Assembly (NCBI GenBank): GCA_003313425.1
Contig: NHZP01000051.1
Span: forward strand, 248,001-312,000
DNA from: Pseudopyrenochaeta lycopersici
Taxonomy: Eukaryota; Ascomycota; Dothideomycetes; Pleosporales; Pseudopyrenochaetaceae
Reading direction: 5' to 3'
Length of the DNA stretch: 64,000 bases
The notes under the pieces were generated by a model that did not search any database, was not told the origin of the DNA, and was given only the letters and a program-made list of their open reading frames with translations. Positions 13,729 to 58,037 of the stretch are shown piece after piece. A program made the translations under genes and the position numbers. Numbering within the stretch: position 1 is the stretch's first letter; each line of letters opens with the position of its first letter.

Positions 13729-15024
13729 TTAATAGCCTTCGCGAATTTCCAGGCCTGTAAGCAAGATGCGACGTACCTCTTGCAGATACGCTGTAACAAC
13801 TTCGGCCTCGTAAAAGGCCTTGTTATACCATATGGCCACCGTCAGCCGTCCCTCAAAGGACCATACATATGTGGTGACGTCGGCTGTAACAGATCCGGCA
13901 CCGATCCAGAAGTCATCAAGCTTGTGGCGGACGCGCTGTTCGACAATCCCAAGGCTGGAAAATAAGGACTGCCGGCTTCCAGCAGCTGCCAAGGCAGGAC
14001 CAAGTGCCTTATATAGCGGCTCGTGTAGGCGTGTGGTGCTGGCCACGCTGAATTGGGTGTAGCTGTCCTTTAGGTGATGGGCGAGATGGAGGAAGTCTTT
14101 CGAGCAGCTGCGACGTAGTACGGCTGGCATAGCCGTAAGATGTACAGATACTGGCGAGTGTTCACGGTCAATATCGGGAGGGAGGCTCTGTCGGAGGTTG
14201 ATGAAGAACATGCTGACATGTGCGGCGGTTGCGTCGACAGCTGCAAGGTTGTCCAGTGCCTGTATCATGCTGCTGTGGGAAGCATGCGTAACGGTGATAC
14301 CGCGATATCTAGCTTGACGGCGGATGTCATGAGTAGAGGCTGAGGAGAACTCTATTCGCTCCATTCGTACGGCATGAGCCGTGTTTGGGTTTTTGGCCTG
14401 GCGAAGACTCAAACCAGGGAGACTGCCTGCTAAGTCTTTGACCATTCTTTGAGCTCTTTGAACATCCGCCTTGCTTGGGTTTCCCAGGTTGAGAGAATGG
14501 GCCAGGCTGCTTGACAGATTTCGATGCTCGTCCCCGAATTCGACGTCCTTGGGATCCGCAAGAGCATCGATCAGATGGTTCAGAAACATCATCGCGCCCA
14601 CGCCGTCGATGTGGTCGTGAGAGATTTGGAAAAAGAGTTCGCGACGTTTTGGGATTAGCACAAGAACTCCCATCTTGGACGATTTTAGCGTACTGAGTAT
14701 GTCGAGTCCAGAGGCTCCTGAACGGTCGATGATAAGGGATTTTGCAAGCCAGTCCTGCACTTCCCTCTCGCCCGGAACAGAGTAGTACAGGCTGCCGTTG
14801 GATATTGAACAGGCGATCCGTGGATGCGCATATCGCAGGCCTTTCCATGCTGTTCGGACGTTGTCCATGGAGTACGCTAGTGTCATGGGCAGCGTTGCTC
14901 CAACTGACACCATGCCGTGCACGATACCAGAAGGTGACGTCATGGAACACGCTGCGTGGAAGAAGCTTTCGATAGCATCTAGCCGTCGGGTCCAGTGTCT
15001 CGGAGCAATCTCGTACCATTCCAT
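13729..15024 (-). CDS. HxxxDG acyltransferase, trichothecene 3/15-O-acetyltransferase-like (431 aa)
   Basis: Predicted transfer of an acyl group from acyl-CoA to an alcohol of a small molecule. The condensation/BAHD-type catalytic motif HDHIDG is at residues 136-141 (His136, Asp140, Gly141), in the usual position about one third along. The C-terminal half is typical of Tri3-like fungal acyltransferases (THASHSSMIQALDN; WSFEGRLTVAIWYNKAF). The ATG at 15024 (MEWYEIAPRHWTRRLDAIES) is the natural start, and the length fits the family. Residues 1-231 occur again at 56741-56050 in a near-identical, truncated copy, part of a segment of about 1.9 kb. No biosynthetic cluster core gene is visible nearby, so the substrate is unknown. 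Confidence 0.8.
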   Translation of the reverse strand: MEWYEIAPRHWTRRLDAIESFFHAACSMTSPSGIVHGMVSVGATLPMTLAYSMDNVRTAWKGLRYAHPRIACSISNGSLYYSVPGEREVQDWLAKSLIIDRSGASGLDILSTLKSSKMGVLVLIPKRRELFFQISHDHIDGVGAMMFLNHLIDALADPKDVEFGDEHRNLSSSLAHSLNLGNPSKADVQRAQRMVKDLAGSLPGLSLRQAKNPNTAHAVRMERIEFSSASTHDIRRQARYRGITVTHASHSSMIQALDNLAAVDATAAHVSMFFINLRQSLPPDIDREHSPVSVHLTAMPAVLRRSCSKDFLHLAHHLKDSYTQFSVASTTRLHEPLYKALGPALAAAGSRQSLFSSLGIVEQRVRHKLDDFWIGAGSVTADVTTYVWSFEGRLTVAIWYNKAFYEAEVVTAYLQEVRRILLTGLEIREGY

Positions 15025-16258
15025 TCTGAGCTCTTGCGTTGTCGGTGAGTGCTGCTGAAGAACCTCCCTTGCAGCGAAAGCCTGGTGATTCGGGCGGTGT
15101 AGAGACTAGAAGACTATTCTCTTGAGCTTTTACGAGTGAGGGTCGGTTTCGTTAATCAGAAATAGAGCACCAGGGGTTTAGGAATGCGGGAGTGGAGCAC
15201 GGCTGGATCGGCTGGAACATCACGAAATACAGTACAGTAGTGCGTCATGATGAAACAAATAGATTCAGTTCCAATCGGCGTCAACAAGGTGCGAATACTG
15301 AGCGATACCTTCATTGGTGGGTCCAAAAAGCGCCTGGTCTCGAGAGCGTTGACACCACTCGGCATCACCACCCACCATCACTCGGCATCACCACCCACCA
15401 TCACTCAGCATCGACGCGACTCAACATTTCATGCCAGCCGCCCTTTCAACACTACCAAAGTCGGGTTCCAATCCAAGGCAGCCGGTTCGCATGTACCTAC
15501 TGCAACGTTGGCAATGCCAATATGTGTCTCCTCGATCTTTTTTGCATCCGATTCTTCTCGCGTCCATCTGGTGCCCATAAGGAAGGACATTATCGCCCAA
15601 ATACAAGCCACAGGACGGATCATTCCCGTCAGTCGAAGCATAGGAGCCATAGGTCACACCGCAAAAGAGAACATGCTGGTCGAGTCGTCCTTATTATACA
15701 CTACGATCATTGTTACAAATCGCCCTGCTTGTCCACGGCACAACATCTAACTCGAGACGACGTAATCACAAATATTCCCGAACTAGAGAGCGTTAAGCAA
15801 AGCGCAGCATTATACCACGCAGTAACATGCCCCAAAGACACCGCGATATAAACATCACTCGCATCCTCGACCGCCCCAGCCAAAACTGCGCTGCGCTGTA
15901 ACTGAGAGAGATTCGGAGGTAGCACGGACACGTCCTGATTTATCAGACACCTCGAAATCTTCGCTCAAGGATGCCTGGGAATGCCTGGGACTTTCCAGAA
16001 ACGAGGTATCAGTTTCCATGGACATGCAAGAACCTGGGTTGTGTCTAGACTCGAATTTGGCAGTTCTTACCATGGTACGTATGCTAGGTAGTATGGAAAC
16101 AGTCAGGGTCATCGGTTGTTCTGATCAGTTGGGCGTTCATTATTTTAGAATGCATCCTTGCGTTTGCGTATTTTTTTGCTCTACATGATTGCTTTCTCGT
16201 GATCCCCACAGTCAGCTACTTCACACGGGCAAGTCGCAGCAAGTGGTCCTTGCATGAA
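14333..16258 (+). repeat. Segmental duplication, copy 1
   Basis: This stretch is near-identical to 56050-58037 in the same orientation, 41.7 kb away. The stretch from 14333 to about 16170 pairs base for base with an offset of 41,717 apart from a few substitutions (for example A/G at 15272 versus 56989). Further right an insertion of about 60 bp appears in copy 2 before homology resumes to 16258. It covers the 5' part of the acyltransferase gene, its promoter and about 1.2 kb upstream. Several overlapping frames at 15156-16112 exist on both strands; none has recognisable composition, so I annotate no gene there. Confidence 0.9.
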
Positions 16259-19275: not shown

Positions 19276-20410
19276 TGTAAGAGTTATCTCATTAATCAAG
19301 CTGAGCCTGAGACTAAGTAATGACGCTAATTAGTCATGTAGACAAGGTCACATGACCACTGCCTTCATCTCCCATCTTGACACTCCCCCTCGATGAGGGC
19401 AGTGCTCCCCCTCAATTGCCGCTATGCACGCACACGTCGTTCATGCTCTGGAGACGTTGCCCTACTCATCGATCCTTCGCAAGCCAACCATTCGCCGAAA
19501 GGACTCAAACTTCGTCTTGCTCAACGGCTTAGTGAGTCCATCCGCTGGGTTCAACTCGCCTGCGATCCATTCCATCCTAACAAGCTGCTCCTCTACCTTC
19601 TCTCGTACAAAGTGGTACCGGATGTCCACGTGCTTCGTTCTCGCATGATACATCGGGTTCTTGGCCAGGGCCAGGGCCCCTCGATTGTCTCCGAGTATGG
19701 TTACTGGCTCAGGCCCGCTCGGCTGAGAGAGGTCAACTCGCAGCTGACACAACAGTCGCTGCAGCCATATCGCTTCCTTCGCGGCCTCTGACTCCGCGAT
19801 GTACTCAGCCTCACAGCTGGACAGCGCCACTGTAGCCTGACGCTTCGATTTCCAGCTGATGGCGGTGCCGGCAAATGTGAAGACGTAACCCCCAGTTGAT
19901 CGGCGATCATCATCTCTTCCCCAGTTCGCGTCTGTGTAGCCCGTCAGGATATCTGGCCGATCTTGCGTATCTATTACCAGGCCGTAGTCACTGGTACCCT
20001 TTATTGTTATGAGTACTCAAATACGTGGCACATGTGATGCAATTCTCAATAGACTTAAAATTATCTCTATTTTGAGTTGTCTCCCTCTCTTCTACAGAGC
20101 GCAACCTGCTCCTTTATATCTACGGCCTTAACTTCAGCTCTTCGGTCTGGCCGACGGTGAATCCGATATTCTCGGTCTCACCGAAAGTATGGAATTTCGG
20201 TCTCTCCGATCAGATATCACCGTACTTTCTAGACCTGTCAACACCCTTCAGGTACCGAAGAAGCCTCTTCAAGGCCGCATGGTGTTTTTGTGACGGATTG
20301 GCGGCGAAGCGACCTAGCTGACTGACCGCATATGAAATATCCGGGCGAGTACAGAGCATCAGATACATGAGGCTCCCAACCGCTCGCTGATACCATTTCC
20401 GGTCCTACAA
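19276..20410 (-). mobile_element. Copia-2: 3' fragment of a copia element with a short LTR
   Basis: Reading leftward: the end of the RT (WYQRAVGSLMYLMLCTRPDI), then RNase H (SSCEAEYIAESEAAKEAIWL ... ARTKHVDIRYHFVREKVEEQ ... NPADGLTKPL), a stop at 19462, a GA-rich polypurine tract (rc of 19383-19391) and a putative 107-bp LTR at 19276-19382 beginning TGTCAAG and ending CTTACA. A solo LTR of another family (20002-20243) splits the fragment. Everything 5' of about 20410 is missing. Confidence 0.8.
20002..20243 (-). repeat. Solo LTR of the Copia-5 family, 5-bp target duplication CCCTT
   Basis: The 242-bp sequence closely matches the minus strand of the Copia-5 3' LTR (50768-51010). It is flanked by CCCTT at 19997-20001 and 20244-20248. 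It lies in the RT/RNase H region of Copia-2. A solo LTR is the usual product of LTR-LTR recombination after insertion. Its outer U5 end reads AATA rather than AACA. Confidence 0.9.
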
Positions 20411-20915
20411 GTCTGACGCCTCTTTACTGTAAGCCTTAAAGGGTGCACAAAGAAATTGTTCATAGAAGTGCATATCATATTGATTGTCTGTTTAAGATGG
20501 AGGGTGGCCTGCAGCTATATGTTCATGAGAGATTACTAATTCTCGAATCATGTGACCAATACTGGCTTACACACCCTCTCAGCTTTTGAAGTTCTTCAAA
20601 AGATGCACTTAAAAGGTAAAGATGGCTGCCTAACGCTTAGGACTTCTACCAATGTACTGCTCTCATTTAAAGAGACTCAAGCACAAAAGATGTGCTCCAA
20701 GACGAAGACTTTATATTAATTGTAGATGGCTGCCTAAAACTTAGGACTTCTGCCAATAAACTGCTCTCATGTAGAGAGACTTCCGTCAGTTAGTATGAGA
20801 TTTTGAAACCTTGAGCTATTGAATTAGAGTTGATATTTCTCAAGGAAGTTGTCTGCCTCATCTTGAGGACTTAGTCTGCCTCATCTTGAGGACTTAGTCT
20901 GCCTCATTTTGAGTA
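20411..20915 (-). other. Left part of the Copia-4 3' region, with 23-bp tandem repeats
   Basis: Non-coding, and interpreted as the continuation of Copia-4 across the TIR element. Its right end (20845-20915) is an array of a 23-bp unit (GACTTAGTCTGCCTCATTTT plus GAG) that continues at 30304 on the other side of the TIR element. Two imperfect copies of a GATGGCTGCCTAA..TTAGGACTTCT motif lie at about 20620 and 20727. Confidence 0.6.
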
Positions 20916-22075
20916 ACGTCCCCCACTGCGTAGCGAGACACACTGTGTGGCGAGACAAATGAGGGGTACTTTGACTTTCAGCAACAAGAAAACCCATGCG
21001 CACAAAGAGTATTGCTATAATTCGATGAAAATAATCTGCTGTAGCTAATCCTGAATGTTCATGATGCACTGTTTCCTAAAAATTACGATCGCATCGTCGC
21101 CTCCGAGCTGGATTTGTACAGCGCCTTCTTTCGTGGCGTAGCAGACCTTCCTCCCCACAGTGCCAACGTCAAGTCTTTATCGCTCCAAATTTTCGTAGAA
21201 TAGCCTTGTCCGAGCCTCAGAACCTCCCTCTAATGCTCAGAAGCCATCATCAGCCTAGTGCGCGCTGTCGCGCGGCAAATTCATGCAGGGCCGCCATGTT
21301 GATTGGTACTTCCACGGAAGCGAATCCCTAATTCTGGCTAATGCGAGATGACCCCGCACTTCTCAGCTCATACATCCGTGGGTAAGGTATGTGGCTGTGC
21401 GGGTCGCACGTGCGCTCGGAATATGATTAAATCCGGCTTGGGATTAGGAGCAGTGCCAAGACCTGCACGGCCACGGCGCTTGTCAGTTAGCTAACGTGTT
21501 TCCAGCGTCGAAGCGGCTTTGGCACAGCTATCCTACACACTTCGAGATGCGGTCCAACGCACGATGACCTCGATGTCTTCCTCGCCCTCAAGCTCCGAAA
21601 CCCACTGTTGTCCCTCCGCTGATCGAACGAAAGGCCTCTAGTCTCGGCTCGTAGAAGGGGAATACAATTATAAGATAGGATAGAGTGGGACGGCCCTAGT
21701 GGTGATACAGCTGTCGTATGGTCAAACGATGAACGGCTCCCTACATGAGCACTGCAATCTTTAGGGTTGTAGAGACGTGCTTTACTTTGACATGTGAGGG
21801 ACATGAGGGGTTTGGATCGTTCATGTTCGCGATGTATAGCAGAGCTGTAATGGTAGCTATGCTTGGCAAGGCACTACACTATCTAGGGCTCCATGCCGTT
21901 CTGTCACCGGAAACGATGGTTATATCTCTTCCTAACGCCATTCATTCTAGACGTTCACGGCAAGGGTGTGGCCGGAGCGGGTCGGCCGTCCTCCCTGCTA
22001 GCGGTGGCGAGTCGAAGTATTCTATGCTTTAATTGTCTGCCTGTAAATACCGCTAATTATGTTGCCGCTGAACCC
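20916..22075 (+). repeat. Left terminal inverted repeat (1,160 bp)
   Basis: Begins ACGTCCCCCACTGCG and ends with GCCGCTGAACCC. Near the tip GCGAGACA occurs twice around the palindrome CACACTGTGTG, a possible transposase-binding arrangement. Short frames on both strands have no recognisable composition. Confidence 0.88.
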
Positions 22076-22344
22076 ATGCTAGTAATCCCCTAATATCCCA
22101 ATGTTTCTTTTGTTTTTTTGGGGGGGGAGGGTTGCCGGGGTGTGCATATGCAAGGAAAAGCATCAGCTGACACCAGTCGAGGACGACCACGTAGGCAGCA
22201 GCCGATTTAACTGCCCCGCCTTCGCAAACACAGTTTGAGCATCAAAGCCCAGCCATAGCATAATAGTGCAACTGAAGTTAAGACCGCTTAGTGTAACAGT
22301 TATCTTATGCTACCTTGTGCAATATATCGTTCTCTCTATTAGCT
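22076..22344 (+). promoter_or_regulatory. Presumed promoter of the HET gene
   Basis: Unique sequence between the left inverted repeat and the HET start codon. It contains a T-rich stretch, a run of eight G followed by GAGGG and CCGGGG (22121-22140, possible G-quadruplex), and pyrimidine-rich CGTTCTCTCTATT just before the ATG, a common arrangement at fungal start sites. No TATA box is obvious. Confidence 0.4.
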
Positions 22345-25300
22345 ATGGCTGAACTTATCCCGATAGCTCAAAAAACCTGGGAGGATTACATGTTTACGGT
22401 AGGCTTTAGCGAACTAGGCAATGATATATTAGCTAACGGTGTAGGCATAGAATGTAAATGTTCATATAATATATTCTAAATATTCTACTAACATAACTTA
22501 TTATAGGAAGTTAGTAGACCTGCGAACACTGCCATGTGCAACTGCTGCTAATCTTGTCTTGTTTGTTGGTGTAGGAAGTAAGTAGACTTGCGAATACTGC
22601 TATGTGCAACTGCTGCTAACCTTGTCTTGTTTGTTGGTGTAGGAAGTAAGTAGACCTGCGAACACTGCCATGTGCGGCTGCTGCTAATCTTGTCTTGTTT
22701 GTTGGTGTAGGAAGTAAGTAGACCTGCGAATACTGCCATGTGCGGCTGCTGCTAATCTTGTCTTGTTTGTTGGTGTAGCGAGTAAGTAGACCTGCGAACA
22801 CTGCCATGTGCGGCTGCTGCTAATCTTGTCTTGTTTGTTGGTGTAGCGAGTAAGTAGACCTGCGAACACTGCCATGTGCGGCTGCTGCTAATCTTGTCTT
22901 GTTTGTTGGTGTAGCGAGTAAGTAGACTTGCGAACGCTGCCATGTGCAGCTGCTGCTAATCTTGTCTTGTTTGTTGGTGTAGCGAGTAAGTAGACCTGCG
23001 AACACTGCTATGTGCGGCTGCTGCTAATCTTGTCTCGTTTGTTGGTGTAGGAAGTAAGTAGACCTGCGAACACTGCTATGTGCGGCTGCTGCTAATCTTG
23101 TCTTGTTTGTTGGTGTAGGAAGTAAGTAGACCTGCGAACACTGCTATGTGCAACTGCTGCTAATCTTGTCTTGTTTGTTGGTGTAGTTTGTAAGTAGACT
23201 TGCGAACACTGCCATGTGCAACTGCTGCTAATCTTGTCTTGTTTGTTGGTGTAGGGAGTAAGTAGACCTGCGAACACTGCCATGTGCGGCTGCTGCTAAT
23301 CTTGTCTTGTTTGTCGGTGTAGTTTGTAAGTAGACCTGCGAACACTGCCATGTGCGGCTGCTGCTAATCTTGTCTTGTTTGTTGGTGTAGGAAGTAAGTA
23401 GACTTGCGAACACTGCTATGTGCAACTGCTGCTAATCTTGTCTTGTTTGTTGGTGTAGCGAGTAAGTAGACCTGCGAATACTGCTATGTGCGGCTGCTGC
23501 TAATCTTGTCTTGTTTGTTGGTGTAGCGAGTAAGTAGACCTGCGAATACTGCTATGTGCGGCTGCTGCTAATCTTGTCTTGATTGTTGGTGTAGGTCGTA
23601 AGTAGACCTGCGAATACTGCCATGTGCGGCTGCTGCTAATCTTGTCTTGTTTGTTGGTGTAGGAAGTAAGTAGACCTGCGAACGCTGCTATATGCAACTG
23701 CTGCTAATCTTGTCTTGTTTGTTGGTGTAGCGAGTAAGTAGACTTGCGAACACTGCCATGTGCGGCTGCTGCTAATCTTGTCTTGTTTGTTGGTGTAGTT
23801 TGTAAGTAGACCTGCGAACACTGCCATGTGCGGCTGCTGCTAATCTTGTCTTGTTTGTTGGTATAGCGAGTAAGTAGACCTGCGAACACTGCTATGTGCG
23901 GCTGCTGCTAATCTTGTCTTGTTTGTTGGTGTAGGAAGTAAGTAGACCTGCGAACACTGCCATGTGCGGCTGCTGCTAATCTTGTCTTGTTTGTTGGTGT
24001 AGGAAGTAAGTAGACTTGCGAACACTGCCATGTGCAACTGCTGCTAATCTTATCTTGTTTGTTGGTGTAGCTCGTAAGTAGACCTGCGAACGCTGCTATG
24101 TGCAACTGCTGCTAATCTTATCTTGTTTGTTGGTGTAGCTCGTAAGTAGACCTGCGAATACTGCTATGTGCGGCTGCTGCTAATCTTATCTTGTTTGTTG
24201 GTGTAGCTCGTAAGTAGACTTGCGAATATTGCCATGTGCAACTGCTGCTAATCTTGTCTTGTTTGTTGGTGTAGGGAGTAAGTAGACCTGCGAATATTAC
24301 CATGTGCAACTGCTGCTAATCTTGTCTTGTTTGTTGGTGTAGTTTGTAAGTAGACCTGCGAACATTGCCATGTGCGGCTGCTGCTAATCTTGTCTTGTTT
24401 GTTGGTGTAGGGAGTAAGTAGACCTGCGAACACTGCTATGTGCGGCTGCTGCTAATCTTGTCTTGTTTGTTGGTGTAGGAAGTACGTAGACCTGCGAACA
24501 CTGCCTTGTGCGGCTGCTGCTAATCTTGTCTTGTTTGTTGGTGTAGCGAGTAAGTAGACCTGCGAACACTGCCATGTGCGGCTGCTGCTAATCTTGTCTT
24601 GTTTGTTGGTGTAGCGAGTAAGTAGACTTGCCAATACTGCCATGTGCGGCTGCTGCTAATCTTGTCTTGTTTGTTGGTGTAGCGAGTAAGTAGACCTGCG
24701 AATATTGCCATGTGCACCTGCTGCTAATCTTGTCTTGTTTGCTGGTGTAGCTAGTAAGCAGACCTGCGAACACTGCCATGTGAGGCTGCTGCTAATCTTG
24801 TCTTGTTTGTTGGTGTAGCGAGTAAGTAGACTTGCGAATACTGCCATGTGTAACTGCTGCTAATCTTGTCTTGTTTGCTGGTGTAGGAAGTAAGTAGACC
24901 TGCGAATACTGCCATGTGCAGCTGCTGCTAATCTTGTCTTGTTTGTTGGTGTAGCTCGTAAGTAGACCTGCGAATACTGCTATGTGCGGCTGCTGCTAAT
25001 CTTGTCTTGTTTGTTGGTGTAGCGAGTAAGTAGACCTGCGAACACTGCCATGTGCAACTGCTGCTAATCTTGTCTTGTTTGTTGATGTAGCGAGTAAGTA
25101 GACCTGCGAACACTGCCATGTGCGGCTGCTGCTAATCTTGTCTTGTTTGTTGGTGTAGCGAGTAAGTAGACCTGCGAATACTGCTATGTGCGGCTGCTGC
25201 TAATCTTGTCTTGTTTGTCGGTGTAGCGAGTAAGTAGACCTGCGAATACTGCCATGTGCGGCTGCTCCTAATCTTGTCTTGTTTGTTGGTGTAGGAAGTA

Positions 25301-28300
25301 AGTAGACCTGCGAACACTGCCATGTGCGGCTGCTGCTAATCTTGTCTTGTTTGTTGGTGTAGCGAGTAAGTAGACTTGCGAACACTGCCATGTGCGGCTG
25401 CTGCTAATCTTGTCTTGTTGGTTGGTGTAGCGAGTAAGTAGACCTGCGAACGCTGCTATGTGCAACTACTACTAATCTTATCTTGTTTGTTGGTGTAGGA
25501 AGTAAGTAGACCTGCGAATACTGCTATGTGTAACTGCTGCTAATCTTGTCTTGTTTGTTGGTGTAGGAAGTAAGTAGACCTGTGAACGCTGCCATGTGCA
25601 GCTGCTGCTAATCTTGTCTTGTTTGTTGGTGTAGCGAGTAAGTAGACTTGCGAACACTGCTATGTGCAGCTGCTGCTAATCTTGTCTTGTTTGTTGGTGT
25701 AGCGAGTAAGTAGACCTGCCAACACTGCCATGTGCGGCTGCTGCTAATCTTGTCTTGTTTGTTGGTGTAGCGAGTAAGTAGACCTGCGAATATTGCCATG
25801 TGCAACTGCTGCTAATCTTGTCTTGTTTGTTGGTGTAGCGAGTAAGTAGACTTGCGAACGCTGCCATGTGCAACTGCTGCTAATCTTGTCTTGTTTGCTG
25901 GTGTAGCTAGTAAGCAGACCTGCGAACACTGCCATGTGCGGCTGCTGCTAATCTTGTCTTGTTTGTTGGTGTAGCGAGTAAGTAGACTTGCGAATACTGC
26001 TATGTGCGGCTGCTGCTAATCTTGTCTTGTTTGTTGGTGTAGGAAGTAAGTAGACCTGCGAACACTGCCATGTGCGGCTGCTCCTAATCTTGTCTTGTTT
26101 GTTGGTGTAGGAAGTAAGTAGACCTGCGAATACTGCCATGTGCGGCTGCTGCTAATCTTGTCTTGTTTGTTGGTGTAGGGAGTAAGTAGACCTGCGAATA
26201 CTGCTATGTGCAACTGCTGCTAATTTTGTCTTGTTTGGTGGTGTAGTTTGTAAGTAGACCTGCGAACACTGCCATGTGCGGCTGCTGCTAATCTTGTCTT
26301 GTTTGTTGGTTTAGCGAGTACGTAGACCTGTGAACACTGCCATGTGCGGCTGCTGCTAATCTTGTCTTGTTTGTTGGTGTAGCGAGTAAGTAGACCTGCG
26401 AACACTGCCATGTGCGGCTGCTAATAATCTTGTCTTGTTTGTTGGTGTAGCTCGTAAGTAGACTTGCGAACACTGCTCTGTGCGGCTGCTGCTAATCTTG
26501 TCTTGTTTGTTGGTGTAGGAAGTAAGTAGACCTGCGAATACTGCTATGTGCGGCTGCTGCTAATCTTGTCTTGTTTGTTGGTGTAGGAAGTAAGTAGACC
26601 TGCGAACACTGCCATGTGCGGCTGCTGCTAATCTTGTCTTGTTTGTTGGTGTAGGAAGTAAGTAGACCTGCGAATACTGCTATGTGCAACTGCTGCTAAT
26701 CTTGTCTTGTTTGTTGGTGTAGCGAGTAAGTAGACTTGCGAACACTGCCATGTGCGGCTGCTGCTAATCTTGTCTTGTTTGTCGGTGTAGGAAGTAAGTA
26801 GACCTGCGAATACTGCCATGTGCGGCTGCTGCTAATCTTGTCTTGTTTGTTGGTGTAGCGAGTAAGTAGACCTGTGAATGTCTTTTACACGCGACCACTT
26901 GAACCAGCACTAATCTGAATCTAGCGCGACGGCTGGAACTATACCTTTGACAAAAACTTTGCTCTAGATTTCTTTATAAGCTTGCCGTCGAGCGCGCTAC
27001 CGAGCCAGCTTGCCCCAGTCCAGTGTTGTACCCTCTGTAATTCCGTTGTGGCCGCGGATTGCATCGTTAGTCTTTCTAATATCCGTGCTACTGAAAAAAG
27101 TTGTCGGCTCTGCGCTCTACTCCTCCGTACACTTAAGCGCCACATCAATGATGATGATCCCAATGTTCGAATCGTTCATGAAGGGTCAGCGTTGAAAATA
27201 GGAAGCGGCGGGCCACGTATTCTCTGGTTGTGTTCTAATCCGAGTTAGTACTCCTAATTCATATATATTGTGCAAGAAGACCATTACTTACTGCATATAC
27301 TTACCACAGAGGATTCGGTCGATACACAGACTCACATCGGGACGGGCCTCCCAGATCTTCCCGAATATATAAGTTCTGCACGTTTTGATCTACTTCGTGC
27401 ATGGTTTCGTTGGTGCGATCAATCCCATAATTGCAACAAGCATGACGGTGAATCGAATCAAACATTACCAACCAGGCTCCTCTGGGTCGGGGACCCAGAT
27501 GATCAACATTACGATCCTGATATCTTGCGTCTCAGTGCCACTACGGATAAAAGTGGAGGAAAATACATTGCTTTATCCCATTGCTGGGGCAAACTTCCGG
27601 ATGAGGCTAAGCAACAATTCTGCACGACCCAGGATAACATTGACCGCCGAAAGGAAGGATTCAGTATCTCAGAACTGCCAAAGACTTTCCAGGACGCTGT
27701 CAAAGTAACTCGTGAACTTCGTGTACCATTCCTCTGGATCGACTCACTCTGCATAATACAATACGGGGATGATAGCAAAGATTGGGAACACGAATCTCGG
27801 CGTATGGAATACGTCTTCTCTTCAGCTTACTGCACAATTGCTGCAACTTCGGCTGTCGATTCGAACGCGGGATTCCTTGAGCGGAACGTAAGCGATGAGT
27901 ATGTTTACGTTCAAGATACCTCAGGCAATCAATTCTATATCTGTGCTGGTATAGATAATTTTGTCAATGATGTGGAGGAGGGTCCGCTCAACACGCGAGC
28001 ATGGGTAATGCAAGAAAGGGTTTTGTCACGACGGACTATCCATTTCAGCGCTAATCAGACATACTGGGAATGCGGTAAAGGGGTTTACTGTGAAAACCTT
28101 ACTAGACTAGAAAGGTAAGAGCTCGACAGTATCTGACCGCTTAATGTTTTCCTAACTTGGGCATTTCGCTTAGCTCATTTCGAAAGGAGTTCTTTATGCT
28201 CGATCCAGACTTTCCGAACCGGCTCCTTGAATCAGGCTACGAACGTACCATGGAATTCATTCACTTTCTTTCCCAGAACTACTCAAAGCGTGGGCTTACA

Positions 28301-28921
28301 AAGGAGACTGACAGATGTGTGGCAACATCTGGGTTAGAGGTCCGTATTACACGTGCCTTAGGCTGCAAAAGCAGATGTGGTATCTTTGAGACGTACCTTC
28401 ACAGGAATCTCCTCTGGCAGCCGTCTGATATTAAGATGGAGAAGATTGTGTACGAAACCCGGCATGTGCCGTCGTGGTCATGGATGGCATATAATGGAGG
28501 CATTCAGTTCATGGAGATCACTTTTGGCGAAGTTGATTGGATCGACAACCTCCGATTTGATAAGGAGCGGGAAGTTGCATTAATGGCCGACGTAGGTGGT
28601 TTCCGGGATTGTACGATGGAACCTGCGATGGAACCGGATGGGAAACATGCGATCTTGGATTCCGGTGGAATGAAAAGAGGTTGGATACAGTATGATGTTG
28701 AGGAGGGCGAGGAACTTAGTAAAGAACGATGTGTTGTCATCGGGAAGAAGTCTAACGAAGATAGGGATAAGATTAAGGGTGGAAATAGATTGGATGTTAA
28801 GGAGTACTACATACTGCTTGTTAGGTCGACTAGTGTGGATGGCGAGTATAGGAGAGTTGGAGTTGGGTTGATTCAGAATGGCTACGTGGTGAAACAGAGC
28901 GTCGAGGTGCGAGTTGTGTGA
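22345..28921 (+). CDS. HET-domain protein with a 65-unit intron/micro-exon array (model 722 aa)
   Basis: HET-domain proteins act in heterokaryon incompatibility. The HET core is clear: CTLC and SCRLCALLL near the N-terminus, YIALSHCWG (model residues 291-299), FLWIDSLCIIQ, WVMQERVLSRRTIHFSA and the C-terminal HVPSWSWMAYNG. The HET exon opens at 26925 directly after a TAG acceptor; no in-frame ATG exists between that TAG and the core. A good start lies at 22345 (agctATGG) in a 32-codon frame to 22440. Model: exon 22345-22440, intron 22441-22506, 65 three-nucleotide exons every 68 bp (22507-26861), intron 26862-26924, exons 26925-27216, 27277-28114 and 28174-28921. The sum is 2,169 nt, exactly 723 codons. 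If the array is instead one large intron, the protein has 657 residues and stays in frame. The 27217-27276 donor (GTATTC) is the least certain. Confidence 0.7.
22441..22506 (+). other. First intron of the array (66 nt, unique sequence)
   Basis: GTAGGC donor after GGT (phase 0), a perfect TACTAAC branch site (22486-22492) and a TTATAG acceptor. It is unrelated to the 68-bp unit except in length. The next three bases are the first GAA micro-exon. Confidence 0.55.
22507..26861 (+). repeat. 68-bp tandem array, 65 three-nucleotide segments separated by intron-like 65-mers
   Basis: I read all units. The three-nucleotide segment starts at 22507 + 68n for n = 0 to 64, without a single insertion or deletion. 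Each is followed by a donor: GTAAGT in 60, GTTAGT in unit 1, GTACGT in units 30 and 57, GTAAGC in units 34 and 51. A TGCTAAT-like branch site lies about 24 nt before a TAG acceptor in every repeat. The segments are GAA 21, CGA 27, TTT 5, CTC 5, GGA 4, CTA 2 and GTC 1. Elsewhere the units vary mainly by C/T and G/A at a few fixed sites. Frames of 60-65 codons on the opposite strand are a by-product of the repeat. Confidence 0.95.
26862..26924 (+). other. Last intron of the array (63 nt, hybrid)
   Basis: It starts like a repeat unit (GTAAGTAGACCTG) and then turns into unique sequence with a CACTAAT branch site and a CTAG acceptor. The TAG of the acceptor is the in-frame stop just upstream of the HET exon, so the exon is only readable after splicing. 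Confidence 0.65.
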
Positions 28922-29143: not shown

Positions 29144-30303
29144 GGGTTCAGCGGCAACATAATTAGCGGTATTTACAGGCAGACAATTAAAGCATAGAAT
29201 ACTTCGACTCGCCACCGCTAGCAGGGAGGACGGCCGACCCGCTCCGGCCACACCCTTGCCGTGAACGTCTAGAATGAATGGCGTTAGGAAGAGATATAAC
29301 CATCGTTTCCGGTGACAGAACGGCATGGAGCCCTAGATAGTGTAGTGCCTTGCCAAGCATAGCTACCATTACAGCTCTGCTATACATCGCGAACATGAAC
29401 GATCCAAACCCCTCATGTCCCTCACATGTCAAAGTAAAGCACGTCTCTACAACCCTAAAGATTGCAGTGCTCATGTAGGGAGCCGTTCATCGTTTGACCA
29501 TACGACAGCTGTATCACCACTAGGGCCGTCCCACTCTATCCTATCTTATAATTGTATTCCCCTTCTACGAGCCGAGACTAGAGGCCTTTCGTTCGATCAG
29601 CGGAGGGACAACAGTGGGTTTCGGAGCTTGAGGGCGAGGAAGACATCGAGGTCATCGTGCGTTGGACCGCATCTCGAAGTGTGTAGGATAGCTGTGCCAA
29701 AGCCGCTTCGACGCTGGAAACACGTTAGCTAACTGACAAGCGCCGTGGCCGTGCAGGTCTTGGCACTGCTCCTAATCCCAAGCCGGATTTAATCATATTC
29801 CGAGCGCACGTGCGACCCGCACAGCCACATACCTTACCCACGGATGTATGAGCTGAGAAGTGCGGGGTCATCTCGCATTAGCCAGAATTAGGGATTCGCT
29901 TCCGTGGAAGTACCAATCAACATGGCGGCCCTGCATGAATTTGCCGCGCGACAGCGCGCACTAGGCTGATGATGGCTTCTGAGCATTAGAGGGAGGTTCT
30001 GAGGCTCGGACAAGGCTATTCTACGAAAATTTGGAGCGATAAAGACTTGACGTTGGCACTGTGGGGAGGAAGGTCTGCTACGCCACGAAAGAAGGCGCTG
30101 TACAAATCCAGCTCGGAGGCGACGATGCGATCGTAATTTTTAGGAAACAGTGCATCATGAACATTCAGGATTAGCTACAGCAGATTATTTTCATCGAATT
30201 ATAGCAATACTCTTTGTGCGCATGGGTTTTCTTGTTGCTGAAAGTCAAAGTACCCCTCATTTGTCTCGCCACACAGTGTGTCTCGCTACGCAGTTGGGGA
30301 CGT
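29144..30303 (-). repeat. Right terminal inverted repeat (1,160 bp)
   Basis: Reverse complement of 20916-22075, ending ...CGCAGTTGGGGACGT before the TA. Near-identity of the two ends implies recent insertion or ongoing homogenisation. Confidence 0.88.
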
Positions 30304-30305
30304 TA

Positions 30306-32349
30306 CTTAGTCTGCCTCATTTTGAGTACTTAGTCTGCCTCATTTTGAGGACTTATGATTCTTAACGAAATTGTCTACCTCATATGAGGACTTACGACTG
30401 AGGATTATGAGACTTGCGATCTAGGGCTTGATCTTCGGCTGACTGAGATCTCTTTCTCCTGACAGCTCGAGGAGACTTAAGTCCAGAGAGTTGTAGAGAA
30501 TGCAGCCATTGCTCATGCCTCTGAATTGGAAGAATTTTGGTTAAGCCGTCAGCTAATTGTCCCATTGAAGGAACCCACTCCGCGTCAATTCTGCCTTCTA
30601 GGACTTCTTGGCGGAGCCAACTCTGATGTATATCTACGTGACGTAGGCTAGTCTTGAGCTTTGGTGTTGATGAACTGACGATCCTAATTGTTTGTAAGTT
30701 ATCGCATAGAAGTAATTTCTTACTAGCTGGATCGAATCCGATCTCTTTAAATAGTCTCCACCACCATTCCAATTCGGTGGCGGCAGTAGATAGTGCCAGA
30801 AGTTCTGCCTCCGTAGAGGACTTAGTGACTGTCCTTTGAATGTTGGCCTTCCAATCGATTGGTCCGCCAAAAAGAAAGAAGATATAGCCTTGAGAGGACT
30901 TTCTTGATGCTCGGTTGTCTCCGTATGAGGAATCTGATGCGCCAAAGAAGACTGGTGGATCCGGGTTGTTTTCAAATGCCATGAATTCCAGCGTCTCGCT
31001 ATGTGAAATAAACTTGACTCCGACATTCAGGGTATTGATAATATATCCGAGTAGTGAATAAGCACCATTTAGGTGTTGTTGAGAAGGATTTATGAGGAAC
31101 TGGGCAAGCTTTGAGTGAGCTTTTGCCACATCTGGGCGAGTGCAAATGGCCAGGTAACCGATGGATCCTAAGATTTCTGCGAATCGGAGCCTTCTCGACG
31201 GATTCGGCTCTCCATCATATTCATCAATTTCGGTTCCTGGTAATGGGTTGTCACGCTTCCATTGCTGCCAGTCATCCTCGGCTTTTGGAAAGAATCTCTT
31301 CCGAATATTCTTAATATACGAGTCTTGTTGCAATGTGATGGTGTAGTTTTCTCTGTCTCGGATGATCTTTATACCGCAAAAGTAGTCCAGCTCTCCTAGC
31401 GAGTGCATCTCATATACTGCAAGGAGCTCCTTCTCGAAGAGATCAACTTGCTGGTGTTTCTCCGGCGGATTGAAGATTAGAATGTCATCCACAAAGAAGA
31501 AGAACAACACGGATTCATTTTTGAATAGACATGGGCAGTCAGGGACTGGATGAAGACCAAGGCGCCTGAGGGTTGTTGTGAGTTCCTCATACCATAGTAG
31601 AGGTGATTGGCGGAGTCCATATAAGGCGCGCTGAAGCTTCCAGAGAAATCCGTCAAGTTCGAAACCAGGTGGTGGAATAAGATGTAGCTTTTCATTGATG
31701 AGCGCATTGGTGAAGGCGTTAACTGCATCAAATTGGCGAATATCCCAGTTGAAAGCGGTGGCTAGTGAAACGAGGGCTCTGAATACCCGAATAGAAATCG
31801 CCTCTCACACAGAGTCTTGCCTTGAATCTTGTAAGATATCCACCGCTGTCGAACTTGTATTTGTACACCCATGTAAGAGGAAGAGACTTGATCTTAATCT
31901 CCTGTTTCAAGACGCGCTTAAATACTCCCTTATCTTTAAGCTTTGAGATCTCCTTTCCTCATTGCCTGCAAAAATCCTTCTTTGAATGGGTGATTGCGTA
32001 GATCAGACTGATATCTTGGTTCTGGTGGAAGACCCCGCTGGTGTCGTCGTTTTGATACCTCTCTCGTAGTTGAAGAAGTGAATGCAGTGAAATATGCCAA
32101 ATAAGGGTTGGTAGCCAATGCGAGAGCTTTCTTTAGAGCTCTCCGAGATCTCCGAGATCCTTCTGGTAAAACATGAGATGGAAGGACATCTCCTCGAATC
32201 TCTTCTGCTCTAGGAGTGTTGTGATGCGGTGACTGTTGATGTCTTTGTGATTGAATGGTTCGCTCACACTCGTCCTCTGATGCGCTCTCCTGACTAGATT
32301 GACTCGAATCGATAGAGAGAACTGATTCATCATCTGAATCCAAAATCAT
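30306..32349 (-). pseudogene. Copia-4: degenerate RT/RNase H of another copia family
   Basis: Reading leftward, 32349-31936 encodes the pre-RT linker. The RT follows (LTWVYKYKF, FKARLCVRGD), a frameshift near 31810, then DAVNAFTNALINEKLHLIPP, ALYGLRQSPLLWYEEL, the catalytic FVDDILIF and a complete-looking RNase H (ASDSSYGDN, SSTEAELLALS, CDNLQTIRI, LRHVDIHQSWLRQE, LADGLTKIL) with stop at 30392. Gag, protease, integrase and clear LTRs are missing on the right. The 3' non-coding part is split by the TIR element and continues at 20411-20915. Confidence 0.8.
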
Positions 32350-38664: not shown

Positions 38665-38705
38665 GTTCTGCGCCCATTTTCATACCTGATTCGAGCTTGG
38701 CCCCC

Positions 38706-39095
38706 ACTCGCAGCAATCCTCAAGCCTGCCACTCGCAGCAATCTCCAAAGCCTGCCACTCGCAGCAATCTCCAAAGCCTGCCACTCGCAGCAATCTTCAA
38801 AGCCTGCCACTCGCAGCAATCCTCAAGCCTGCCACGCGCAGCAATCTTCAAAGCCTGCCACTCGCAGCAATCCTCAAGCCTGCCACTCGCAGCAATCTTC
38901 AAAGCCTGCCACTCGCAGCAATCCTCAAGCCTGCCACTCGCAGCAATCTTCAAAGCCTGCCACTCGCAGCAATCCTCAAGCCTGCCACTCGCAGCAATCT
39001 TCAAAGCCTGCCACTCGCAGCAATCTTCAAAGCCTGCCACTCGCAGCAATCTCCAAAGCCTGCCACTCGCAGCATTCCCAAAGCCTGCTCCGGCA
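38706..39095 (+). repeat. 25/26-bp minisatellite in the Copia-3 leader
   Basis: About 15 units of CACTCGCAGCAATC plus TTCAAAGCCTGC (26 bp) or CTCAAGCCTGC (25 bp). In the middle the two lengths alternate, giving a 51-bp (17-codon) higher-order unit. A frame on each strand therefore stays open: 38655-39125 forward with HSQQSSSLPLAAIFKAC repeats, and 39049-38720 reverse. I regard neither as an established gene. Confidence 0.85.
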
Positions 39096-44713: not shown

Positions 44714-44959
44714 TGTTGACAGGTCTAGAAAGTACGGTGATATCTGATCGGAGAAACCGAAGCTTTAGACTTTTCGGTAAAACCGAGAATATCGGACTGA
44801 CCGTCGGCCAGTCCGAAGAGCTGAAGTTAAGACCGTAGATATAAAGGCTAGGCTGCGCTTTGAAGAAAAAAAATAAGAGACAACTCAAAATAGAGATAAT
44901 TTTAAGTCTATTGAGAATTGCATCACATGTGCCACATTAATAGAGTACTCATACCAACA
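44714..44959 (+). repeat. Copia-5 5' LTR
   Basis: 246 bp, TGTTGACAGG...CATACCAACA, with a GATATAAAGG promoter-like box. It differs from the 3' LTR at roughly a tenth of positions, mainly in the first 150 bp. Confidence 0.9.
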
Positions 44960-50650: not shown

Positions 50651-50767
50651 ACAGGAACTTACGCCTAGGTTTTTATGCCAATTGGGCTTTTCCTAGGAGC
50701 TACGTATACTGTTTTTTTATAAAGTTTTTTTTGACGTAGCTGTTGTTAGATATAACCGTAAGGGGGC

Positions 50768-51010
50768 TGTTGACAGGTCTAGAAAGTACGGTGATATCTG
50801 ATCGGAGAGACCGAAATTCCATACTTTCGGTGAGACCGAGAATATCGGATTCACCGTCGGCCAGACCGAAGAGCTGAAGTTGAGGCCGTAGATATAAAGG
50901 AGCAGGTTGCGCTCTGTAGAAGAGAGGGAGACAACTCAAAATAGAGATAATTTTAAGTCTATTGAGAATTGCATCACATGTGTCACATTAATAGAGTACT
51001 CATACCAACA
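50768..51010 (+). repeat. Copia-5 3' LTR
   Basis: 243 bp. It is much closer to the two solo LTRs in the window (20002-20243, 55419-55660) than to the 5' LTR of the same element. Confidence 0.9.
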
Positions 51011-54870: not shown

Positions 54871-55418
54871 GATTGCGCAGATCTAACTGCAGACGTAGGC
54901 CAGCTAGTAACCCTCGCAGGGTGAGTATGGGTTAGCGGAACTGCTAAGAGTCGAGAAGTATGGTGGCGGATTAGGTGTGGGACTGTATATGAGGTGGTTG
55001 CAGCGCTGGTGATGAATTTGCGGAATGCAGGCTGTCGCAGGGTAAGGTGCCGGGTGAATTGATTGGTTGATTGATTGATTGATTGATTGATTGATTATTG
55101 ATGATGATGAATTCGCGTTGGCTGTGAAGAGCCTTCGAATTGATTGATACTCGGTTTCAGCCGCGATTTCTCCGCAGTTATGCCCGGTGTGGCCAACGTG
55201 TCAGAAGCCGACGCCGACTCGGATACTTATTGTTCCGCTCCGCACCGTTCACCCTGCAAATAAGGCCAGCCTTATCTCAAGTCTCAGAGCTAGTGCAGCC
55301 TAAGGGTGTCCTGTCGTCCGCCTAGGACGCGTCCACATTGGCTAGCCTAATGGAAACGTCGATCATGGCAATGGGCGAGCGCAGGGCAACCAAAATGTCC
55401 CAGAAGCCGAATTGCCTT
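54871..55418. other. Intergenic region with a (TTGA)n tract and a gene-like fragment
   Basis: TTGA repeats at about 55057-55095, then ATGATGATGA. From about 55140 a frame (ARCGQRVRSRRRLGYLLF) looks like a decayed gene and has a stop at 55323-55325. It may continue beyond the solo LTR (see 55661). Confidence 0.4.
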
Positions 55419-55660
55419 TATTAGATTGAGTACTCAAATACGTGGCACATGTGATGCAATTCTCAATAGACTTAAAATTATCTCTATTTTGAGTTGTCTC
55501 CCCCTCTTCTACACAGCGCAACCTGCTCCTTTATATCTACGGCCTTAACTTCAGCTCTTCGGTCTGGCCGACGGTGAATCCGATATTCTCGGTCTCACCG
55601 AAAGTATGGAATTTCGGTCTCTCCGATCAGATATCACCGTACTTTCTAGACCTGTCAACA
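55419..55660 (-). repeat. Solo LTR of the Copia-5 family, target duplication GCCTT
   Basis: 242 bp, flanked by GCCTT at 55414-55418 and 55661-55665. Nearly the same sequence as the solo LTR at 20002-20243, including the AATA outer U5 end. Confidence 0.9.
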
Positions 55661-56049
55661 GCCTTCAGTTTCCGTAAGCGAATTGCAGCTGAGACCACCA
55701 AGCGAAGCAATGCTTGCCATACTTGCACGGCTCAGTGATTATTCTGGAGAAGCTGGCAATGCTGCTGGGGCCGAGGGCAACACACCAAACAACCAACCGG
55801 ACTCCACCTCCAGCACTTCCAATCAGATGGAATGCTGAAATGCGCTTAGCAGAAATTGATGATTAAGATGATAGATAAGGTGTCGAAAAAATGATCATTC
55901 TCTTGTTCGTGTCCTGTCCAACGCTTTTTCCTATATCTCCTCTGCTTCCGGAGGTTCCGCAGATCGTAGTAGTCATCAGTCCTACTATTGATAGCTCGTT
56001 CCTATGCAGTACATCTAAGCTTCTCCTTGTATGACGGAGGAGGTCGTGG
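55661..56049 (+). pseudogene. Possible 3' fragment of an unidentified gene
   Basis: A frame from 55667 to 55839 (SVSVSELQLRPPSEAMLAIL ... STSNQMEC, then TGA) has coding-like composition with amphipathic helices. It is cut on the left by the solo LTR. I cannot name the family. The remainder up to 56049 is non-coding and joins the duplicated segment. Confidence 0.3.
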
Positions 56050-56741
56050 GTAGAGGCTGAGGAGAACTCTATTCGCTCCATTCGTACGGCATGAGCCGTG
56101 TTTGGGTTTTTGGCCTGGCGAAGACTCAAACCAGGGAGACTGCCTGCTAAGTCTTTGACCATTCTTTGAGCTCTTTGAACATCCGCCTTGCTTGGGTTTC
56201 CCAGGTTGAGAGAATGGGCCAGGCTGCTTGACAGATTTCGATGCTCGTCCCCGAATTCGACGTCCTTGGGATCCGCAAGAGCATCGATCAGATGGTTCAG
56301 AAACATCATCGCGCCCACGCCGTCGATGTGGTCGTGAGAGATTTGGAAAAAGAGTTCGCGACGTTTTGGGATTAGCACAAGAACTCCCATCTTGGACGAT
56401 TTTAGCGTACTGAGTATGTCGAGTCCAGAGGCTCCTGAACGGTCGATGATAAGGGATTTTGCAAGCCAGTCCTGCACTTCCCTCTCGCCCGGAACAGAGT
56501 AGTACAGGCTGCCGTTGGATATTGAACAGGCGATCCGTGGATGCGCATATCGCAGGCCTTTCCATGCTGTTCGGACGTTGTCCATGGAGTACGCTAGTGT
56601 CATGGGCAGCGTTGCTCCAACTGACACCATGCCGTGCACGATACCAGAAGGTGACGTCATGGAACACGCTGCGTGGAAGAAGCTTTCGATAGCATCTAGC
56701 CGTCGGGTCCAGTGTCTCGGAGCAATCTCGTACCATTCCAT
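56050..56741 (-). pseudogene. Truncated copy of the HxxxDG acyltransferase
   Basis: The first 231 codons match the gene at 15024-13729, including the HDHIDG motif. The homology ends at 56050, and an unrelated tail of about 60 codons follows to a stop at 55863. The C-terminal half, which forms part of the active-site tunnel in this fold, is missing, so activity is unlikely. The near-absence of changes shows that the duplication is recent. Confidence 0.88.
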
Positions 56742-58037
56742 TCTGAGCTCTTGCGTTGTCGGTGAGTGCTGCTGAAGAACCTCCCTTGCAGCGAAAGCCT
56801 GGTGATTCGGGCGGTGTAGAGACTAGAAGACTATTCTCTTGAGCTTTTACGAGTGAGGGTCGGTTTCGTTAATCAGAAATAGAGCACCAGGGGTTTAGGA
56901 ATGCGGGAGTGGAGCACGGCTGGATCGGCTGGAACATCACGAAATACAGTACAGTAGTGCGTCATGATGAAACAAATAGATTCGGTTCCAATCGGCGTCA
57001 ACAAGGTGCGAATACTGAGCGATACCTTCATTGGTGGGTCCAAAAAGCGCCTGGTCTCGAGAGCGTTGACACCACTCGGCATCACCACCCACCATCACTC
57101 GGCATCACCACCCACCATCACTCAGCATCGACGCGACTCAACATTTCATGCCAGCCGCCCTTTCAACACTACCAAAGTCGGGTTCCAATCCAAGGCAGCC
57201 GGTTCGCATGTACCTACTGCAACGTTGGCAATGCCAATATGTGTCTCCTCGATCTTTTTTGCATCCGATTCTTCTCGCGTCCATCTGGTGCCCATAAGGA
57301 AGGACATTATCGCCCAAATACAAGCCACAGGACGGATCATTCCCGTCAGTCGAAGCATAGGAGCCATAGGTCACACCGCAAAAGAGAACATGCTGGTCGA
57401 GTCGTCCTTATTATACACTACGATCATTGTTACAAATCGCCCTGCTTGTCCACGGCACAACATCTAACTCGAGACGACGTAATCACAAATATTCCCGAAC
57501 TAGAGAGCGTTAAGCAAAGCGCAGCATTATACCACGCAGTAACATGCCCCAAAGACACCGCGATATAAACATCACTCGCATCCTCGACCGCCCCAGCCAA
57601 AACTGCGCTGCGCTGTAACTGAGAGAGATTCGGAGGTAGCACGGACACGTCCTGATTTATCAGACACCTCGAAATCTTCGCTCAAGGATGCCTGGGAATG
57701 CCTGGGACTTTCCAGAAACGAGGTATCAGTTTCCATGGACATGCAAGAACCTGGGTTGTGTCTAGACTCGAATTTGGCAGTTCTTACCATGGTACGTATG
57801 CTAGGTAGTATGGAAACAGTCAGGGTCATCGGTTGTTCTGATCAGTTGGGCGTTCATTATTTTAGAATGCATCCTTGCGTTTGCGTATTGTTCTGTTCTA
57901 CATGATTGTCTTGCTCGTGAAGAATCCAGCAAATGAATACCATCCTACTTTGTCAGTGACGAGACGAGTCTGACACTTTCCCCACAGTCAGCTACTTCAC
58001 ACGGTAACACAAGTGGCAGCAAGTGGTCCTTGCATGA
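56050..58037 (+). repeat. Segmental duplication, copy 2
   Basis: Counterpart of 14333-16258, same orientation. It starts abruptly inside the acyltransferase coding sequence. Confidence 0.9.

Follow-up and report, generated by a model that had tools for sequence, protein, structure and literature searches.

Serial three-nucleotide micro-exons predicted in a HET-domain gene of Pseudopyrenochaeta lycopersici

The HET-domain gene and its 68-bp units

The window analysed here, a 64,000-nt stretch of the Pseudopyrenochaeta lycopersici genome (contig NHZP01000051.1, positions 248,001 to 312,000; contig C51 of an assembly of 62.7 Mb in 188 contigs), carries on its forward strand a HET-domain gene (22345-28921) in which a tandem array of intron-like 68-bp units separates the first exon from the exons encoding the HET domain. 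In-silico splicing gave a gene of 70 exons and 69 introns, ordered as exon 1, 66 micro-exons of 3 nt and three large HET exons; the resulting coding sequence (2124 nt, 707 codons) is open in a single frame, its only stop being the terminal one. The HET domain (PF06985) scored 103.6 bits against a curated cut-off of 22.5, and it was the only Pfam family detected at E 0.01 in the modelled 707-aa protein, with neither NACHT nor ankyrin repeats. In the labels used below, C denotes a contig of this genome, L a locus of it and P a protein from another source.

Exon 1 (22345..22398, 54 nt, encoding MAELIPIAQKTWEDYMFT) ends in phase 0, and intron 1 (22399..22450) has a GTAGGC donor, a GCTAAC branch site and an ATAG end. 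The same first donor is found in the four paralogs L011, L019, L020 and L023, which moves the end of exon 1 from position 22440, where the original prediction had placed it, to 22398. The first micro-exon (AAT, Asn; 22451..22453) lies outside the 68-bp repeat and is followed by an intron of 53 nt that is not one of the repeat units (22454..22506). The array proper (22507..26861) comprises 65 micro-exons of 3 nt, stepping exactly 68 bp from 22507 to 26859, with 64 introns of 65 nt between them; a last array intron of 63 nt (26862..26924) leads into the first HET exon (26925..27243, beginning RDGWNYTFDKNFALDFF). The end of this exon had been predicted at 27216, and was corrected to 27243 by comparison with relatives that read on. 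The second HET exon (27310..28114) contains the HET domain (27564-28016), and the last one (28174..28921) ends at the stop codon, with relatives (P0001, P0002 and others) continuing through the junction between them. The earlier count of 68 introns and 65 single-residue exons was consequently revised to 69 introns and 66 micro-exons by the addition of the AAT codon, while the array of 65 itself was retained.

Tandem Repeats Finder recovered a single 68-bp array (22509-26878; 92% matches, zero indels), in agreement with the original description. Every one of the 69 introns in the full model is of the GT...AG type, and 64 measure 65 nt; CTAAY is present 10-45 nt before the intron end in 68 of the 69, the last CTAA being followed by 23 nt in 63. 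Donors behind the micro-exons are GTAAGT in 60 of 66 cases and the acceptors ahead of them are TAG in 66 of 66, confirming the complete set of splice signals claimed for each unit. At the sequence level these are the hallmarks of U2-type introns (GT...AG, donor and branch site). The introns lie in tandem, 3 nt apart, none interrupting a splice element of another as in stwintrons, and the exons between them measure 3 nt, not the zero length of ratchet points. The codons of the window array are CGA (27), GAA (21), TTT (5), CTC (5), GGA (4), CTA (2) and GTC (1).

The double-site pattern TAGNNNGTAAGT-N40-70-TAGNNNGTAAGT, which describes two successive 3-nt exons with their splice signals, was found 271 times in the genome, compared with 0 matches for the reversed control and a chance expectation of about 0.06 (estimated by simple arithmetic from 18 fixed bases and 31 possible gap lengths on both strands of 62.7 Mb, with all four bases taken as equally frequent). 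The version with 4-nt exons had 0 matches genome-wide (reversed control 2), the version with 6-nt exons had 3, all of them copies of one other sequence, and no double sites with GTATGT donors were found in the genome.

Recurrence of the arrays and variability of their codons

Parsed arrays of three or more micro-exons are present in at least 18 places of the genome: C2, C4, C12, C13, C27, C43 (three), C46 (two), C51 (the window), C54, C63, C64, C68 (two), C78 and C115; C42 bears a two-unit array fragment. This list is a lower bound, one of the listings behind it being confined to pairs in which the first micro-exon has G or C as its last base. The first HET exon of the window gene has 14 matches in the genome and all 14 have an array directly upstream (one is a pseudogene). 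The arrays of C4 and C13, missed by this query, likewise run into PF06985 exons. Twelve of the 150 HET-domain places scored (out of 520 candidates) belong to array genes by match against the array list. Thirteen of the 14 HET matches are stop-free inside. Broken copies also exist: C68:177k has 3 stops in the HET region and an array remnant of 3 units; C64 and C68:150k are severed from a full HET gene; and C43:195k has no exon 1 within 330 bases ahead of its array (the last three judged by eye).

The units fall into three groups, of 68 bp (the window and most loci), 70 bp (C4, C27) and 71 bp (C13), all of which leave exactly 3 bases between introns. Alignment of the intron consensus sequences of 12 arrays gave z values ranging from 3.0 to 14.7 for pairs of the same group and reaching 3.7 at most for pairs of different groups; a faint kinship of C13 to the 68-bp group is therefore possible. 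The array may have originated up to three times at one and the same position in HET genes; alternatively, the units may have diverged with the 3-nt spacing retained. Three near-identical copies contain 32, 32 and 9 units, and array length is therefore unstable; the two 32-unit copies differ in a single codon, by a synonymous change (CTG/CTC). No dominant lag, that is, no higher-order repeat period, was detected in the five arrays searched for it.

Exon-1 candidates were chosen by eye in the array genes, and 13 of 13 are of whole-codon length (L012 and L015 are the least certain); an ending of the W[ED]D..[FM][TEQ] type is present in five of the 13, the window included. By eye, the first two micro-exons after exon 1 encode Asn-Glu in the window, L020 and L010, Lys-Glu in L019 and Arg-Glu in L023, the first being AAT, AAA and AGA, respectively, followed by GAA in each. 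In L010 the intron after AAT appears to have a GC donor (GCAAGT), as against GTAAAT in the window. A block like GGCAGCAGCCGATTGAACTGCCCCGCCT lies at ~22170-22230, and similar blocks precede exon 1 in L010, L019, L020 and L023; this block is perhaps a promoter element shared by the five array genes.

Exactly 3-nt exons with complete splice signals were counted in 14 non-redundant arrays, leaving out the near-identical copies L021, L024 and L043 as well as the locus L044. Four false first units corresponding to the exon-1 boundary or the first intron (L010, L013, L019, L020; the one of L013 reads TAA) were dropped, and the L010 AAT, which precedes the GC donor, stands outside the counts. The 389 micro-exons remaining include 47 kinds of codon and no stop. 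When bases were permuted within each micro-exon column, array by array, 18.2 stops arose on average (minimum 8), and none of 5000 shuffles was stop-free. Because the units copy each other, counting each codon once per array is the safer test: among the 132 types obtained in this way 6.2 stops were expected, and zero was reached in 7 of 20000 shuffles. The micro-exon triplets are also the most diverse of all 70 offsets (132 array-codon types, the next offset having 101).

Arginine, glutamate, leucine, aspartate and glycine are abundant in the spliced segments, such as REEERRRGREELKLLRELELLQERQELLREIEF (C4) and AEAYRDDRADDARYRRALDDLDDDALDPGADH (C46). Compared with column shuffles of the types, the clear excesses are limited to E, F and W and the clear deficits to V and stops; part of the composition follows from base composition. 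Selection on the kinds of amino acid was considered for S, T, C and M, which are scarce (5 of 389), yet not significantly low against the type shuffles, and it was discarded.

In the window array the codons vary far more than the introns surrounding them: mean entropy is 1.22 in the codon columns and 0.14 in the intron columns, the three codon columns rank 2, 1 and 5 of 63 by variability, pairwise diversity is 0.51 per codon base compared with 0.058 per intron base, and transversions account for 0.73 of the differences in codons and 0.13 in introns. A micro-exon column is the most variable of the 63 in 8 of 8 arrays with at least 20 units, and codons exceed introns in variability in 11 of the 12 arrays tested. 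Unit pairs with identical downstream introns have different codons in 33 of 48 cases, the sharing (0.31) being close to random (0.28). These comparisons point to selection for different codons, or against codon homogenisation, acting on a uniform backbone; hypermutation targeted at the codon is also conceivable as the source of this diversity.

Related proteins, rival explanations and proposed mechanism

The named best relatives of the HET body are ascomycete proteins, including those of Lepidopterella, Bisporella, Phaeosphaeriaceae and Mytilinidion. Two proteins of Phaeosphaeriaceae sp. PMI808 were informative: P0009 starts with MENKWSFT, which is also exon 1 in the paralogs of C46, C78 and C115, and continues with blocks such as EAAANAGVLGGV, to be compared with the unit consensus of L011 (C46:190k) read in one frame (EAAANAGVSGGV); P0005 starts with MDQETWKDSLFW-NE, the NE matching the Asn-Glu of the first micro-exons, and goes on with EAAANPAVFGGV, to be compared with the unit consensus of L010 (C46:92k) in one frame (EAAANHAVFGGV). 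Arrays therefore very likely exist in PMI808 too, concealed by gene prediction. Two other relatives, P0021 and P0039, come from contigs of ~2.2 and ~2.5 kb in a source tagged lgn, interpreted as assembled public reads. Both HET introns are missing from P0039 and at least the first from P0021, and P0084, which has a different origin, appears to retain the second; to judge from these junctions, P0039 and P0021 look like spliced RNA. Between the exon-1-like motif and HET they contain 43 (P0021) and ~58 (P0039) residues, with ends set by eye, which suggests that micro-exons are included in the mRNA. A protein query in which exon 1 was fused to HET returned 4 proteins, with no new exon 1 among them, and one made of the intron-reading front of P0009 matched P0009 alone.

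The architecture, its phase, the absence of stops, the recurrence in HET paralogs, the excess of codon over intron variability in large arrays and the changes of array length can all be read in the DNA, and on this basis the 4.4-kb array probably consists of true introns, predicted to be removed serially, which would join 66 codons into an N-terminal segment of the HET protein. The original view of each unit as an intron and of the three bases as a codon thus appears strongly supported by the comparison within the genome. The segment would be hypervariable and mostly charged, in a protein that likely serves self/non-self recognition, as expected from the HET family.

Several observations weigh against this reading. 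The gene models of relatives lack a clean string of micro-exons, P0005 and P0009 translating array introns instead, and P0003 of Lepidopterella palustris joins exon 1 directly to HET, as would be expected if the array were skipped or missing. The segments of P0021 and P0039 may derive from ordinary exons; their composition is weakly array-like (log-odds of -0.3 and +1.9 bits), with values exceeding 99.8% or more of random HET-body segments. Units being copies, the 389 micro-exons are not 389 independent tests of stop avoidance, and 10 of the 69 control offsets, seven of them adjoining splice signals, are also stop-free, so that the absence of stops alone tells less than its combination with the highest diversity. 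In L019 codon variability (0.90) falls below that of the intron (1.06), one codon column ranks only 37 (L013) or 46 (L023) of 63, and L023 has no transversion enrichment; moreover, among pairs of units with identical upstream introns 0.44 have the same codon, where 0.28 would be expected. Finally, no helix or heptad order was detected in eight arrays when the hydrophobic moment at 3.6 residues and the opposite charges at i,i+3/i,i+4 were compared with shuffles: two of 16 tests fell below 0.05 (L020, 0.015; charges in the window, 0.036), and the 14 others were above it.

The array could alternatively be one large intron, spliced from 22398 to 26925, and the repeats an intronic minisatellite made of intron copies. 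The direct join is indeed in frame and open, P0003 has such a junction, and the 64 unit steps without an indel resemble a young minisatellite; this explanation is nevertheless unlikely, as it predicts neither stop-free micro-exons nor codons more variable than the adjacent intron bases, neither the recurrent Asn-Glu micro-exons nor the identical 3-nt spacing of three dissimilar unit groups. A plain minisatellite, moreover, would be free of coding constraint, and the avoidance of stops and the hypervariability of the codons indicate otherwise.

Ratchet points of recursive splicing consist of an AG directly followed by a GT, a zero-length exon. The layout of the array resembles them, with 3 bases instead of 0 and a new donor at each step, and AG-NNN-GT might be a stepping stone whose three bases are removed again, giving a protein devoid of array residues. 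A ratchet requires neither a sense codon nor a multiple of three, yet stops are absent and the 4-nt version of the double site has no match in the genome, which makes recursive splicing a very improbable account. Least credible is the idea that the arrays are decayed, non-functional satellites in pseudogenes: the broken copies (C68:177k, C64, C68:150k and C43:195k) conform to it, whereas the stop-free interior of 13 of the 14 HET matches, the window gene open throughout and the stop-free micro-exons counted above do not.

Under serial removal of the introns, each ~65-nt intron would be recognised by intron definition and excised in turn, since an exon of 3 nt is too short to accommodate two neighbouring spliceosomes. 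The near-identical introns would serve as recombination spacers, allowing codons to be gained, lost and reshuffled with the frame never shifted, and the spliced segment, lying in front of the HET domain, would set or tune the specificity of recognition. The frame is kept however many micro-exons are skipped, and a range of protein lengths per gene is therefore expected. A broader and clearly more tentative proposal, which we consider somewhat less probable than its opposite, is a two-layer generator of diversity, in which recombination between introns and variable splicing of subsets of the 66 codons would yield a family of recognition segments per mycelium. Since the units are of three dissimilar kinds, such a system might have arisen up to three times in this genome, paralleling the micro-exons of truffle NLR genes.

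Known systems and genomic context

The original statement that no equivalent had been described did not hold: tens of alternatively spliced 3-bp micro-exons have been reported in the NACHT-ANK (nank) genes of Tuber melanosporum (Iotti et al. 2012, as cited in PMC3689799, PMC4986451 and PMC10197012). In the accounts given there, the truffle genes share with the window gene tens of 3-bp exons in a fungal recognition-type family, and the arrangement is called a diversification mechanism. As far as those accounts go, the differences are that the window gene is a HET gene devoid of NACHT and ankyrin repeats with its micro-exons 5' of the HET domain, that here codon divergence is visible in the DNA and three dissimilar unit groups occur in one genome, and that alternative splicing is reported for the truffle genes, while the window gene is known from DNA. 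The truffle case, which seems little known, was the sole match in searches of open-licence papers, which yielded no micro-exon array in a HET gene. Judged against these reports, what is new is the gene family, the position within the protein and a DNA-level diversification of codons over uniform introns.

The window gene, which qualifies as a recognition gene through PF06985, its role being deduced from the family, also resembles the HNWD genes (Podospora het-d/het-e) and other fungal NLRs with highly conserved tandem repeats (PMC12222747, PMC2873952) in combining a repeated DNA backbone with a few hypervariable positions per unit. In HNWD the unit encodes a whole repeat fold (WD40, about 42 residues), whereas in the window it encodes one residue and the backbone is an intron. 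The stwintrons of Xylariales, nested with one intron inside the donor of another (PMC12403724), are likewise fungal U2 introns, similar and repeated, that are removed stepwise (as is predicted here); as described in that source, they differ from the window introns, which stand in tandem with a codon between them. Very small exons have been reported singly: a 1-nt exon in Fusarium CYP621A (PMC12940212), a 3-bp exon in Drosophila homothorax (PMC7392893) and a micro-exon in Trichoderma virens Xlr2 (PMC11121469). According to these reports, fungal and animal spliceosomes can use exons of 1-3 nt or otherwise very small, one per gene and not in an array. The micro-exon genes of Schistosoma (exons of 3-81 bp, introns up to 5 kbp; PMC10526429) also build a protein from many short exons, down to 3 bp, and differ from the window gene in their long introns, the portion of that source consulted mentioning no tandem intron repeat.

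The array gene sits between two arms of an inverted repeat, a left arm of 1164 bp on the forward strand (20912..22075) that is 99.9% identical to the right arm on the reverse strand (29144..30307). The arms belong to a dispersed family with 62 matches in the genome. Stretches were sampled inside 7 other inverted pairs, and 4 of them (C25:387833-394736, C14:185262-192283, C2:1421584-1427911 and C51:71617-76983) enclose genes of the recognition type that carry tandem repeats: HET-NACHT-WD40, TPR, DUF7104 repeats, and an NPHP3_N/NACHT-type ATPase next to ankyrin repeats. The remaining three contain an HNH protein, an open reading frame with no Pfam match, and no open reading frame of 110 codons, respectively. 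The arrangement has the look of a cassette for recognition genes that moves or recombines. The WD40 repeats of the HET-NACHT-WD40 gene (L045, 300-1600, reverse strand) are nearly identical with few variable positions; near-identical repeats of this kind are a feature of fungal recognition genes.

Other repeats of the window are a direct duplication (14315-16202 and 56032-57920; 1.9 kb, 99.5% identical, ~42 kb apart), a dispersed repeat of 240-260 bp in four copies 87-97% identical (19998-20257, 44714-44959, 50765-51010 and 55415-55674), and a tandem array of 15 copies of ~26-bp units (CCACTCGCAGCAATCTCCAAAGCCTG) at 38704-39088.

If the codons are spliced in, the HET protein would contain a segment encoded at one residue per exon, with introns acting as frame-proof spacers for recombination, which would explain how a recognition gene can change quickly in sequence and length without breaking. 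A run of 66 successive 3-nt exons would also test the limit of intron definition. Genes of this kind can be hidden by gene predictors, as the PMI808 models, which seem to translate introns, illustrate. If the two-layer generator proved true, it would be the finest-grained exon shuffling known, and the parallel with the truffle NLR genes suggests that fungi reached the same trick in different recognition families.

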